Source: Shewanella sp. UCD-KL21 | Lineage (GTDB): Bacteria; Pseudomonadota; Gammaproteobacteria; Enterobacterales; Shewanellaceae | Direction: 5' to 3' | Assembly: GCF_001957135.1 (NCBI RefSeq) | Contig: NZ_MPHK01000007.1 | Location: 62,001-126,000 of the forward strand | DNA: 64,000 nt | Shown: piece after piece, positions 4,858 to 56,786 of the stretch | Layout of the letters: the number at the start of each line of letters is the position of its first letter | How positions within the stretch are numbered: position 1 is the first letter of the stretch | Notes under the pieces: model-generated | Databases searched by the model: none | Told to the model about the DNA's origin: nothing | What the model saw: only the letters and a program-made list of their open reading frames with translations | Translations under genes and position numbers: made by a program

Positions 4858-4944
4858 AAGCAGACAAACTAAGCAAACCAGTGCAGCAAAAGCTAAGCAA
4901 AAAACTTTAGTAACAGAAATTTAGTAAAAAAGTTTAGTAAAAAA

Positions 4945-34310: not shown

Positions 34311-37116
<2,806 letters not shown>

Positions 37117-43875: not shown

Positions 43876-44064
43876 CTTTGAGATGAACAAGGAACAAGTA
43901 ACGACCCCTTCGCACCATTACCCCTAAAACCGATAGCCACTCAGCCTAGACCGAGCTTTATTGAATGAGATCAATTTGATACCGAGTTAATAACTGTGAA
44001 TTGCGTCAGATTCAGCTTTGCAGTTTGATGATAAGCTGCGGCGGTAATTTACTATGGAATTGAT

Positions 44065-44565
44065 ATGCTTAGCCTGTTACGTCACCGACTCACGTTTGCT
44101 TTTACGCTGCTCACTCTGTTGAGTCAGTTAGTATTTGCTAACGGTGAATTGATGGTGCCAAAGGCCCATGCAGATATAAAACCGCTGCAACACACTCATA
44201 CTGCAAACACCCAGGCTCATACAACAAGCCCACAATCTCATACAGCAAGCACACAAGCTAAGATGCCAGAAACTCAGGCAGATACTCGTCCAGAACCCCA
44301 GCAAAAGACACAAGCAAAGCACACAGTAACTGACTCAGGCATTAACACCAATAGCAGCTCCAATAGCAGCCCTGCTGATCATTGTGACACTAAACATGAC
44401 TGTCAGTCAGATTGCGACAACTGCCTATTCATCACATTAACAGGTACGCTACAGCTCTTTGCCCCTTGGGCAGTGAATTCTCCATCAGATCAAGCTATAG
44501 CAACCCCAATGCCCTATTTTCACTCGATATATACCCAGCAAAATTTAAGACCACCTATCGGCTAA
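44065..44565 (+). CDS. Exported His/Thr/Gln-rich protein with a Cys-His cluster, putative metal handling
   Basis: 166 residues. A signal peptide or anchor is at 9-25 (ending V-F-A-N). A low-complexity region rich in His, Thr, Gln and Ala follows, with repeats of T-Q-A-x-x-x-x-P-Q-S-H-T type (40-95). Then comes a metal-ligand cluster, H-C-D-T-K-H-D-C-Q-S-D-C-D-N-C (about 106-120), a hydrophobic stretch and the ending L-R-P-P-I-G. The ending recalls small periplasmic proteins such as CzcI/DUF2946 that sit before metal-resistance genes, but I cannot place it in a family. It lies 107 bp before the Cys-repeat protein and may be co-transcribed. Metal binding is inferred from composition. Confidence 0.65.
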   Translation: MLSLLRHRLTFAFTLLTLLSQLVFANGELMVPKAHADIKPLQHTHTANTQAHTTSPQSHTASTQAKMPETQADTRPEPQQKTQAKHTVTDSGINTNSSSNSSPADHCDTKHDCQSDCDNCLFITLTGTLQLFAPWAVNSPSDQAIATPMPYFHSIYTQQNLRPPIG

Positions 44566-44672: not shown

Positions 44673-45338
44673 ATGAAAAACGTTATCTATTTATTTCTCA
44701 GTCTCTTTTTGATCAGCTCAAGCGTGCAACTTGCTAATGCAGGCCAACACAACCTTGGGCAACACCAGCACCAGCACCAGCACCAAAAATACCAATGCCC
44801 AATGCACCCTGAGGTGAAAGGCGATAATGGTGATACTTGCCCAAAATGTGGCATGAACCTAGAACAAATCAAAGGCGATCATTGTCCAAATAAAGCTAAA
44901 TGCGACAACTGCCCAAATAAAGGCAAATGCGATAACTGCCCGAACAAAGGCAAATGTGAAAACTGCCCAAATAAAGGTAAATGTGACAACTGCCCAAATA
45001 AAGGCAAGTGTGAAAACTGCCCGAACAAAGGCAAATGTGATAACTGCCCGAACAAAGGCAAGTGTGATAACTGCCCGAACAAAGGCAAATGTGATAACTG
45101 CCCAAATAAAGGCAAATGTGACAACTGCCCAAACAAAGGCAAATGCGAAAACTGCGCTGACAAATGTAACTGTAAATGCTGCTCTAAAAAAGGCCACAAC
45201 AAGCATGCTGCGGTTAAACATACCCATGCTTGCCCAATGAATGCTGATATCACTGGCGTTGCTGGCGATACCTGCCCAAATTGTGGCATGGATTTAATGC
45301 CGATTGAAGCCAATGCAAAGGCCCACGCACATCACTAA
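44673..45338 (+). CDS. Exported metallothionein-like protein: ten 9-residue Cys repeats between two heavy-metal-binding motifs
   Basis: 221 residues. A signal peptide (about 5-23, cleavage after A-N-A) is followed by a His/Gln run (H-Q-H-Q-H-Q-H-Q). Next is a first heavy-metal-binding motif, Y-Q-C-P-M-H-P-E-V then D-T-C-P-K-C-G-M. Ten tandem copies of C-P-N-K-G-K-C-(D/E)-N follow (about 71-160), then C-A-D-K-C-N-C-K-C-C, and a second motif H-A-C-P-M-N-A-D then D-T-C-P-N-C-G-M-D-L. About 31 of 221 residues are Cys. The C-P-M-H-P...C-P-x-C-G-M motif is known from the N termini of copper ATPases and Cus-type proteins. The repeat section resembles no family I know. Likely role: binding or buffering soft metals (copper, zinc, cadmium) in the periplasm. 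Confidence 0.8.
   Translation: MKNVIYLFLSLFLISSSVQLANAGQHNLGQHQHQHQHQKYQCPMHPEVKGDNGDTCPKCGMNLEQIKGDHCPNKAKCDNCPNKGKCDNCPNKGKCENCPNKGKCDNCPNKGKCENCPNKGKCDNCPNKGKCDNCPNKGKCDNCPNKGKCDNCPNKGKCENCADKCNCKCCSKKGHNKHAAVKHTHACPMNADITGVAGDTCPNCGMDLMPIEANAKAHAHH
44883..45152 (+). repeat. 27-bp tandem repeat, ten in-frame copies
   Basis: The units encode C-P-N-K-G-K-C-D/E-N and differ only at a few synonymous or D/E positions, so the array is young or kept uniform. Because the unit length is a multiple of three, the repeat makes long false open frames on both strands. There are no spacers, so it is not a CRISPR array. Confidence 0.95.
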
Positions 45339-45836: not shown

Positions 45837-48116
45837 ATGAAACCACGACTACCGAAAAAAACAGCGCTTGCTGGCTTTATAAGCATGTTGTTGATATCAA
45901 CTTCAGCATGCGCCAGTGAGCAATCTACCGCAGAAATGACTAAACCTAAAGGCGCTGTGGGAACAGGTTCAGCACTAACAAACCAAGCAAAAACTAACCA
46001 ATTTTGGTGGCCAGATCAGCTTAATTTGTCTCCTCTTCGTGATCACGATAGTCGCTCAAATCCTTATGGCGAAGACTTTAATTATGCTACAGCATTTAAC
46101 AGCCTCGACCTTGCCCAAGTTAAACGTGATATTGATGCGCTACTGACTAGCTCTCAAGATTGGTGGCCTGCTGATTTTGGTAACTACGGCCCCTTCTTTA
46201 TCCGCATGACATGGCACAGTGCAGGAACATATCGCACCCTCGATGGTCGCGGCGGCGCAGGCGGTGGCCAACAACGATTTGAACCACTCAACAGTTGGCC
46301 AGACAATGGCAACCTAGACAAAGCCCGCCGCTTACTTTGGCCCGTTAAAATGAAATACGGCGAAGCACTTTCATGGTCTGATTTGATGGTATTAGCCGGT
46401 AATGTCTCATTGGAAAACATGGGCTTTAAAACCTATGGTTTTGCAGGTGGACGTGCAGATGATTGGGAGCCAGACATGGTCTACTGGGGGCCTGAAGTAG
46501 AAATGTTGGCAAGCGATCGTGAAGACAGTAAAGGCAAGTTGCAACGCCCTCTTGGCGCTACTCACATGGGCTTGATCTATGTAAACCCTGAAGGTCCTAA
46601 AGGGGTACCGGATCCATTAGGTTCAGCTAAAAATATTCGGGTAGCCTTTCAGCGCATGGCAATGAACGATGAAGAAACCCTTGCCCTTATCGCTGGTGGC
46701 CACACCTTCGGTAAAATGCACGGTGCGCACAAACCTAAAGATTGTGTCGGCAAAGAACCCGCTGCAGCAGGCATTGAAGAGCAAGGCCTTGGTTGGAAAA
46801 ACAAGTGTGGCAAAGGTCACTCAGAAGATACTGTCACCAGTGGTTTAGAAGGCGCATGGACTCAAGCACCAACTAAGTGGACATCTCTATATCTCAGCAA
46901 TTTACTTAACTTTGACTGGCAGCAAACTCGCAGCCCTGCAGGTGCTATCCAATGGATCCCAACGGATGAGTCATTACACAAAGCCGTTCCCGATGCACAT
47001 ATAGAAGGCAAATTTAACCCACCAGTCATGACCACCGCTGACTTAGCGTTAAAGTACGATCCTGAATACCGCAAAATTGCAGAACGCTTTTTAGCGGATC
47101 CTGAAGAGTATCGTTTAGCCTTCGCCAAAGCGTGGTACAAACTGACCCACAGAGATATGGGACCTTCACGTAACTTCCTTGGCAGTGAAGTACCTAAAGA
47201 CACCCTAATTTGGCAAGATCCCATAGCTGCCGAAACCATGTCTAATATCGATGCTGATGACATCAAAGATTTGAAAGAAAAAATCTTAGATACCGACTTA
47301 AGCGTATCCGAATTAGTCCGTGTTGCTTGGGCCTCTGCAGCCAGCTACCGTGATGCAGACATGCGCGGTGGTGCCAACGGTGCACGTATTGCTTTATCGC
47401 CTCAAAAAGATTGGCAAGTCAATAACCCGGCTGAAACCGCTAAAGTCATTAATGTTCTCAAAGCAATTCAAGCCGACTTTAACGACAGCCTATTGAGTAA
47501 AAGCCAAGTTTCACTGGCCGATTTAATTGTTTTAGCTGGTAGCGCTGCAATTGAAAAAGCAGCCAAAGATGGCGGTTACAATGTCAGTGTGCCATTCACC
47601 CCTGGTCGTGGTGATGCCAGCCAAGCAATGACAGATGAAAACTCATTTAAATTACTTGAGCTTTCTGCCGATGGTTTTAGAAACTACTTTGACAGCGAAT
47701 CAAGCTATAAGTCGCCAGTTGACATGTTAGTTGATAAAGCCGATCAGCTAGACCTAAACGTGCCTGAAATGACGGTATTGGTGGGTGGGTTGCGGGCACT
47801 GAATGCAAACTACCAAGGCGCCAAGCATGGAGTATTAACCAACTCGCCAGGTAAGTTAAATAATGACTTTTTCGTTAACTTACTCGACATGTCTACCGTT
47901 TGGAAAAAATCATCAACTGCGGGTGTTTATGAAGGGTTTGATCGCCAATCAGGTAACAAGAAATGGTCTGCCACCTCTGTCGATTTAATCTTTGGTTCTA
48001 ACTCAGAACTTCGTGCTGTGGCTGAAGTGTATGCCTTTGACACTTCTAAGCAAAAGTTTATTGATGACTTTGTTGCCGCTTGGGTCAAGGTAATGAACCT
48101 AGATCGTTTAAATTAA
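45837..48116 (+). CDS. Catalase-peroxidase with signal peptide (periplasmic KatG/KatP type)
   Basis: A 759-residue second KatG paralogue. It differs from the cytosolic copy by an N-terminal extension of about 35 residues, with a basic start (M-K-P-R-L-P-K-K), a hydrophobic core (about 9-22) and a cleavage site near S-A-C-A-S at 23-27. This resembles exported KatP-type enzymes. Catalytic residues are complete: R123, W126, H127, proximal H289 and the W126-Y248-M274 adduct. It should remove peroxide in the periplasm, including that arriving from outside or formed by copper chemistry. It follows the metal-binding gene pair but has its own leader and terminator. AAGGAAG precedes the ATG. Confidence 0.94.
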
Positions 48117-56531: not shown

Positions 56532-56748
56532 CAGTAAGCATATTGGCAGTGATTGAATTGAGGCTAACACTAATAAGCGGATTGTTTAATTGGCTGATTG
56601 TATGAAAGCTTGATTGGCTACTCATAGAAATGCCTGATTGCCTGATTGTATAAATGCCTGATTATCTTAAGATGCAGCCCAATGCCAAAAATCAATCACT
56701 AATGGCTATCAACTACCTCCACATTGACCATTTTTGCTGCAATATTTT

Positions 56749-56786
56749 CTTTTGTTTTTTTCTTTTGTTTTTTTCTTTTGTTTTTT
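56749..56786 (+). repeat. Three tandem copies of a T-rich 13-bp unit
   Basis: CTTTTGTTTTTTT repeated three times (last copy one base short). It is a minisatellite prone to length change. Confidence 0.85.

Follow-up and report, generated by a model that had tools for sequence, protein, structure and literature searches.

An exported-type Shewanella protein with ten cysteine repeats between two heavy metal binding domains: a Cys-expanded variant of a cus-operon protein family

What kind of protein carries ten cysteine repeats behind a signal-peptide-like start, and which metal, if any, would it handle? The question is raised by a gene of Shewanella sp. UCD-KL21 (assembly GCF_001957135.1, contig NZ_MPHK01000007.1, positions 62,001–126,000, forward strand; this stretch of 64,000 nt is the window, and its numbering is used unless a locus is named). 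A first-pass annotation had described an exported, metallothionein-like protein here, and ORF, repeat and Pfam analysis confirmed its coordinates, Cys count, repeat count and motif order. The reading frame runs on the forward strand from an ATG at 44673 to a stop codon ending at 45338 and encodes 221 amino acids (31 Cys, 14 His and 32 Lys; ~24.0 kDa and pI 8.65, computed from the sequence). Residues 1–23 (44673..44741) end in ANA and resemble a Sec-type signal peptide, as judged by eye. The first heavy metal binding domain (HMBD) comprises residues 39–65 (44787..44867, the best PF19335 stretch) with the motif CPMHP...CPKCGM, whose CPM is encoded at 44796. It is followed by ten tandem units of CPNK(G/A)KC(D/E)N (44883..45152), a short Cys-rich block (45153..45191, CADKCNCKCCSKK) and the core of a second HMBD, residues 187–206 (45231..45290), with the motif CPMN...CPNCGM. 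The two stretches together place the protein in Pfam PF19335 (E 2.4e-14; 53.4 bits against a cut-off of 23.6).

The ten units are contiguous and 27 bp long. The first reads CPNKAKCDN and the other nine CPNKGKC(D/E)N. Tandem Repeats Finder reports a period of 27, 10.0 copies, 89% matches and a score of 379, the highest among its 12 rows for the window. Among the units, variation occurs in seven of the nine codon columns, always at the third base except for a single GCT (Ala) in unit 1. Over the 45 pairs of units, which are not independent of each other, 115 base differences are synonymous and 38 non-synonymous; by the codon table, 21 of the latter are D/E exchanges and 17 stem from the Ala unit. 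Since the differences between units lie almost entirely in third positions, the repeat peptide is conserved. The repeat frame is plainly read and constrained, with silent drift while the peptide is kept; this is a plain pattern rather than the outcome of a fitted neutral model. In a single-sequence AlphaFold2 model with a mean pLDDT of 46.8, residues 2–16 are helical, and the pLDDT is ~70 in the HMBDs and ~35 in the array. The low values in the array are compatible with folding upon metal binding and constitute weak evidence. Other short tandem repeats of the window, with 13-base units, are located at 56745–56786 and 4888–4944.

Bacterial metallothioneins such as SmtA/BmtA and MymT are cytosolic and short, and CusF is a β-barrel with a Met/His/Trp site. 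The likeness to SmtA/BmtA and MymT lies in a Cys-rich, Lys-rich array without a predicted fold of its own, an analogy of presumed working; the window protein differs in being of the exported type, repetitive and flanked by HMBDs. No metallothionein model appears among the Pfam and NCBIfam matches at E values up to 1. The term metallothionein-like used in the first-pass annotation is therefore retained as an analogy and dropped as a statement of membership. Likewise, the Pfam matches contain no profile of the Csp four-helix bundle, and no CusF profile is present among the Pfam and NCBIfam matches of the HMBD-array protein and its neighbour. A review (PMC7558416) covers Csp1, which is exported, the cytosolic Csp3, metallothioneins and CusF. 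According to its available text, Csp1 is an exported protein with many Cys that stores copper in Gram-negative bacteria, as the window protein is read here, but it carries a Tat signal and is a rigid four-helix bundle, whereas the window protein has a Sec-like start and no Csp profile. CusF is there described as a small copper protein of the periplasm whose gene accompanies those of CusBA, a likeness to the HMBD family described below.

Homology searches identified the family to which the protein belongs. Comparison genomes, one per species, are designated by G numbers; G000 is the genome of the window and G048 is S. electrodiphila DSM 24955. The repeat block alone matched four of 129 genomes of the genus, including the window's own, at E values up to 0.001, and missed arrays of 14- and 15-residue units. 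A weak repeat-only match in G033 (G033:C2:1207985-1208212, E 4.4e-4) was dropped, as no ATG-initiated ORF of at least 50 aa with more than five Cys was found there. With the full protein, matches at E up to 0.001 were obtained in 145 of 152 genomes of the taxonomic family, many of them to HMBDs of other proteins. At the order level 24 of 394 genomes matched at E up to 1e-8, every one with the same HMBD-protein family. At the phylum level 20 of 398 matched at E up to 1e-6; five belong to the HMBD-protein family and the other fifteen matches sit in open frames of 194–869 residues. A pattern scan of named-genome contigs gave 388 matches, with S. electrodiphila DSM 24955 as the sole relative. A match on a Sinorhizobium sojae plasmid (E 2e-9) proved to be an artefact: the matching frame is Arg-rich and lies opposite an ORF of 435 aa. 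The window protein is 66% identical to its relative in G048, 61% to those in G114 and G084, 56% in G058 and 54% in G067. These identities and a tree of the HMBD ends relate it to the family over both ends, including the N-terminus. The protein is a Cys-expanded form of a common Shewanella HMBD protein, not a metallothionein standing by itself, a relation that the first-pass annotation could not see.

For comparison, 73 places were fetched, mostly best-scoring matches and hence not a random sample. They yielded 70 small HMBD proteins, one per genome, two of which (G007 and G011) come from another genus of Shewanellaceae. No small HMBD protein came from G006, from G047 or from a second G033 site, and a fragment at a contig end of G050 was left out. 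A CopL-like ORF, recognized by position and a C-terminal PP(I/S), precedes the hmbd gene in 68 of the 70 (all except G138 and G011). In 64, hmbd is followed by a cusB-sized ORF (370 aa or longer). Among the remaining six, G050 and G138 are cut by a contig end, G076 has a split cusB, and G000, G048 and G067 contain a standalone copL-hmbd cassette apart from cusBA, the only such cassettes among the 70. Between hmbd and cusA of G076 (L083 2068-3498), cusB appears to be broken across reading frames. The operon form is copL-hmbd-cusB-cusA, and several loci adjoin a tetrahaem cytochrome gene, which we take to be cymA. On the megaplasmid of S. oneidensis MR-1 the order is a hypothetical protein (CopL-like), a heavy metal-binding domain-containing protein of 86 aa (WP_011074443.1), an RND adaptor and CusA/CzcA. 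WP_011074443.1 and its chromosomal counterpart SO_4596 share with the window protein the signal-peptide-like start, the HMBD and the upstream CopL-like gene; they lie in a cus operon with CusBA, whereas the window protein is standalone. Plain family members have one to three HMBDs, at most eight other Cys in 63 of 70 cases and no array, in contrast to the window protein. SO_4596 is tabulated as 'Copper-transporting ATPase domain-containing protein' in the available part of PMC4112983.

In the window, the upstream gene (44065..44565, forward strand) encodes 166 aa with a signal-peptide-like start and the C-terminus RPPIG, and is separated from the hmbd gene by 107 bases. Its match to NF033807 (CopL_fam) has E 2.3e-7 and a score of 31.5 bits, short of the curated cut-off at 40 bits, and the protein is therefore termed CopL-like rather than CopL. 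Of six CopL-like proteins from the window and other loci, four match NF033807 with an E value of 0.001 or less, and none of these attains the cut-off: besides the window protein, the copies of G129, the MR-1 plasmid and G079 score 22.6–28.2 bits. The two further copies have no match at that E value. The CopL-like neighbour and the usual copL-hmbd-cusB-cusA setting, both beyond what the first-pass annotation saw, point to copper or silver.

The downstream neighbour had been mentioned as possibly relevant. An exported catalase-peroxidase gene (katG) begins 498 bases downstream of hmbd on the same strand, an arrangement that would suit an HMBD-array protein acting with KatG against oxidative stress. 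However, katG is not beside the cassette or the cus operon in any of the eight comparison genomes searched; it lies elsewhere in seven (54–57% identity) and has no match in G047. The cassettes of G048 and G067 are flanked by other genes. Synteny in these genomes does not support such a partnership, which is extremely improbable. The window itself has two katG genes ~9 kb apart (34942-37116 and 45837-48116), the second with a signal-peptide-like start, whose proteins are 55% identical. On the other side, a roxA-like gene precedes the cassette both in the window and in G048. Within 1.5 kb of the corresponding roxA-like gene in G047, G058, G084, G114 and G129, neither copL nor hmbd was seen.

The cus operon of the window genome is on another contig (G000:C24, L036), so cusBA is not directly downstream of the cassette. 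This operon consists of a CopL-like gene, a CusB of 703 aa and CusA; it lacks a small HMBD gene, as do the cus operons of G048, G067 and G047. Its CusB (L036 8167-10278) contains seven tandem HMBD stretches, as though CusB had taken on HMBDs in place of the small HMBD gene. CusA scores 1324 bits against E. coli CusA structures and 502 against ZneA. The three methionines M573, M623 and M672, which we take to be the Cu(I)/Ag(I) relay triad of CusA, are Met in the aligned sequence. By these features the G000 pump is classed as the Cu(I)/Ag(I) type. Since it is nearer to CusA and keeps the Met triad, the HMBD family works beside a Cu(I)/Ag(I) pump.

Taken with this context, the protein is probably a periplasmic buffer of Cu(I) and/or Ag(I), descended from the small HMBD protein of the copL-hmbd-cusB-cusA operon. 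It would be exported to the periplasm by the Sec pathway. Tandem duplication of a Cys-bearing linker between the two HMBDs would have produced the array of CxxC pairs, which would capture many monovalent soft-metal ions, Cu(I) or Ag(I), in the fashion of metallothioneins. The HMBD ends may retain the exchange or docking role of the parent protein and exchange metal with the Cus system. The two HMBDs, the ten constrained Cys repeats, the CopL-like neighbour, the operon family and the CusA type count for buffering of Cu(I)/Ag(I). The sub-threshold CopL match and the position of the cassette away from the pump count against it, as do the etrA data and a site missing at the cusBA-side copL (both below). 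A general soft-metal or Zn/Cd sponge of the same build, serving physiologically for Zn, Cd or Hg instead of Cu or Ag, is unlikely: the CopL-like partner and the pump of CusA type that accompanies the operon form of the family speak against it. In its favour, thiolate arrays bind many soft metals, as established in metallothioneins, the HMBD is named merely 'heavy metal binding domain', and the standalone cassette has no link to a CusA gene.

Comparison of the 70 relatives shows where the ligands accumulate. Outside the HMBDs, 63 proteins have 0–8 Cys and the other seven have 15, 20, 21, 22, 25, 30 and 41. The array units are 9 residues long in the window protein (a period scan reads its best period as 18, two 9-residue units), 14 in G114, G084 and G058, 15 in G079, 18 in G067 and ~21 and irregular in G048. 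All seven arrays keep their Cys. In G144 (L043 5853-6554) a 19-residue His-rich tandem array occupies the same linker position. The linker between the HMBDs is thus a site where ligand-rich repeats grow, and plain linkers such as CDSCPNKESCPNK are the likely starting material of the arrays. Near-neutral tandem expansion, in which slippage lengthens the linker and the resulting array contributes little, would fit an array confined to just seven of 70 proteins and units that vary in length and sequence between genomes, so that arrays turn over. It is extremely unlikely in view of the third-position pattern among the window units and the Cys kept in all seven arrays. The occurrence of 15–41 Cys in seven of 70 proteins, in five kinds of unit, argues for selection on Cys content.

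The region upstream of copL contains a putative CRP/FNR-like site, TGTGA-N6-TCA (43995..44008, forward strand), and 23 bases past it an extended -10 element (TGA-TAAGCT, 44029..44037, hexamer at 44032). The site is present in 50 of 68 copL upstream regions, compared with a mean of 0.7 and a maximum of 5 in 60 shuffles, and no other 5+3 pattern with this gap is as common; 18 regions have no counterpart. In 49 of the 50 site-bearing regions TANNNT preceded by TG follows 21–24 bases after the site (200 shuffled tails: mean 7.6, maximum 15). The regions are related (48 distinct 45-mers), and the counts do not represent independent events. We presume this spacing to be the geometry of a class-II CRP/FNR promoter, to which the predicted site and -10 element of the window copL conform. 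A regulator of the CRP/FNR family would accordingly be expected, on this prediction, to control copL-hmbd. None of the nine regions upstream of copL that were scanned contained a simple CueR-like, MerR-like or CusR-like operator pattern, and the CRP/FNR-like site was not found at the cusBA-side copL of G000, G048, G067 and G047. In the available part of PMC3078092, a predicted EtrA site at S. oneidensis pckA has the same form as the copL site, and SO4596–4598 are up in an etrA mutant, which the authors class among stress effects. Because these genes rise in the mutant, plain activation by EtrA does not fit; CRP is an alternative regulator. Through this promoter pattern, a CRP/FNR-family site is linked to a copper/silver operon in a genus that serves as a model of metal respiration. 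In some operons a second short, exported-looking ORF with Cys, perhaps a further CopL-like protein, lies upstream of copL (L041 5053-5466; L043 8116-8634; L042 5217-5576).

Regulation might also be the role of the gene pair itself. The CopL-like and HMBD proteins would then act mainly in copper sensing or signalling, with the array as a sensor or a ligand sink that sets the threshold of other genes. Xanthomonas CopL is described, in the part of PMC10312155 available, as required for cop gene activation at high copper, a role that favours such a pair, and the cassette occurs without the pump in three genomes. On the other hand, neither protein has a DNA-binding or signalling domain among its Pfam and NCBIfam matches, and an array of 25 Cys would seem to exceed the need of a sensor. 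A sensing pair is distinctly improbable.

Disulfide formation after Sec export is the main threat to the proposed buffering of Cu(I)/Ag(I). Expression at low oxygen would ease this problem. If the periplasmic CxxC pairs were oxidised instead, the array would be a thiol buffer in a disulfide-bonded or redox protein rather than a metal site; export into an oxidising compartment and the regularity of the pairs agree with that. The HMBDs at both ends, the CopL/Cus context and the His-rich array of G144, which at the same place suggests selection on metal ligands, make it very unlikely. The locus opens to experiment the general question of what keeps a Cys array reduced or metal-loaded once the Sec pathway has exported it.

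The feature is real and well bounded; it is a Cys-expanded variant of a known metal-binding protein family, and we infer its function. Its exported, modular, Cys-repeat and probably metal-binding nature, as proposed in the first-pass annotation, is supported by sequence and gene context. The further suggestion that an exported repeat protein of this type is not a known kind agrees with literature searches, whose reach excluded most subscription papers. In the titles and abstract starts covered, no bacterial exported Cys-repeat protein of such build was recognized, and searches for exported, periplasmic, secreted or extracytoplasmic metallothioneins gave a fungal case alone. Multi-domain metallothioneins of snails and mushrooms also grow by repeating metal-binding units, according to the available text of PMC7084494 and PMC12508003. 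They are eukaryotic and built from metallothionein domains, whereas the window protein is bacterial and its array derives from the linker of a non-metallothionein; within the sources available they are the nearest analogy. If metal is bound as read here, the window protein would represent a kind absent from the literature searched, an exported metallothionein-like protein, and its metallothionein-like array would have arisen within a non-metallothionein protein. As plain, intermediate and expanded forms exist in one genus, a gain in capacity can be tested repeat by repeat.

It is possible, and suggested only tentatively, that separate lineages each made an exported metallothionein from the inter-HMBD linker of a Cus-operon protein, using different units. 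The thiolate array would buffer periplasmic Cu(I)/Ag(I), and CRP/FNR-type control would supply the thiols in the places and at the times at which the periplasm oxidises least. If this is true, changes in array length would let evolution adjust copper capacity rapidly. On the tree of the HMBD ends (115 columns, poorly resolved) the array needs two changes, and in all 200 bootstrap trees a single change is too few; the well-supported branches force a single change, so a single origin is not firmly excluded. On the CusA tree labelled by genome three changes are needed, and the supported branches force all three; these may correspond to one gain and two losses. The histories of CusA and the cassette need not agree. 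The three genomes with a standalone cassette (G000, G048 and G067) form one clade in the HMBD-end tree with 100/100 support. The two histories may differ, since G000 joins G047 in the CusA tree and G048 and G067 in the HMBD tree.
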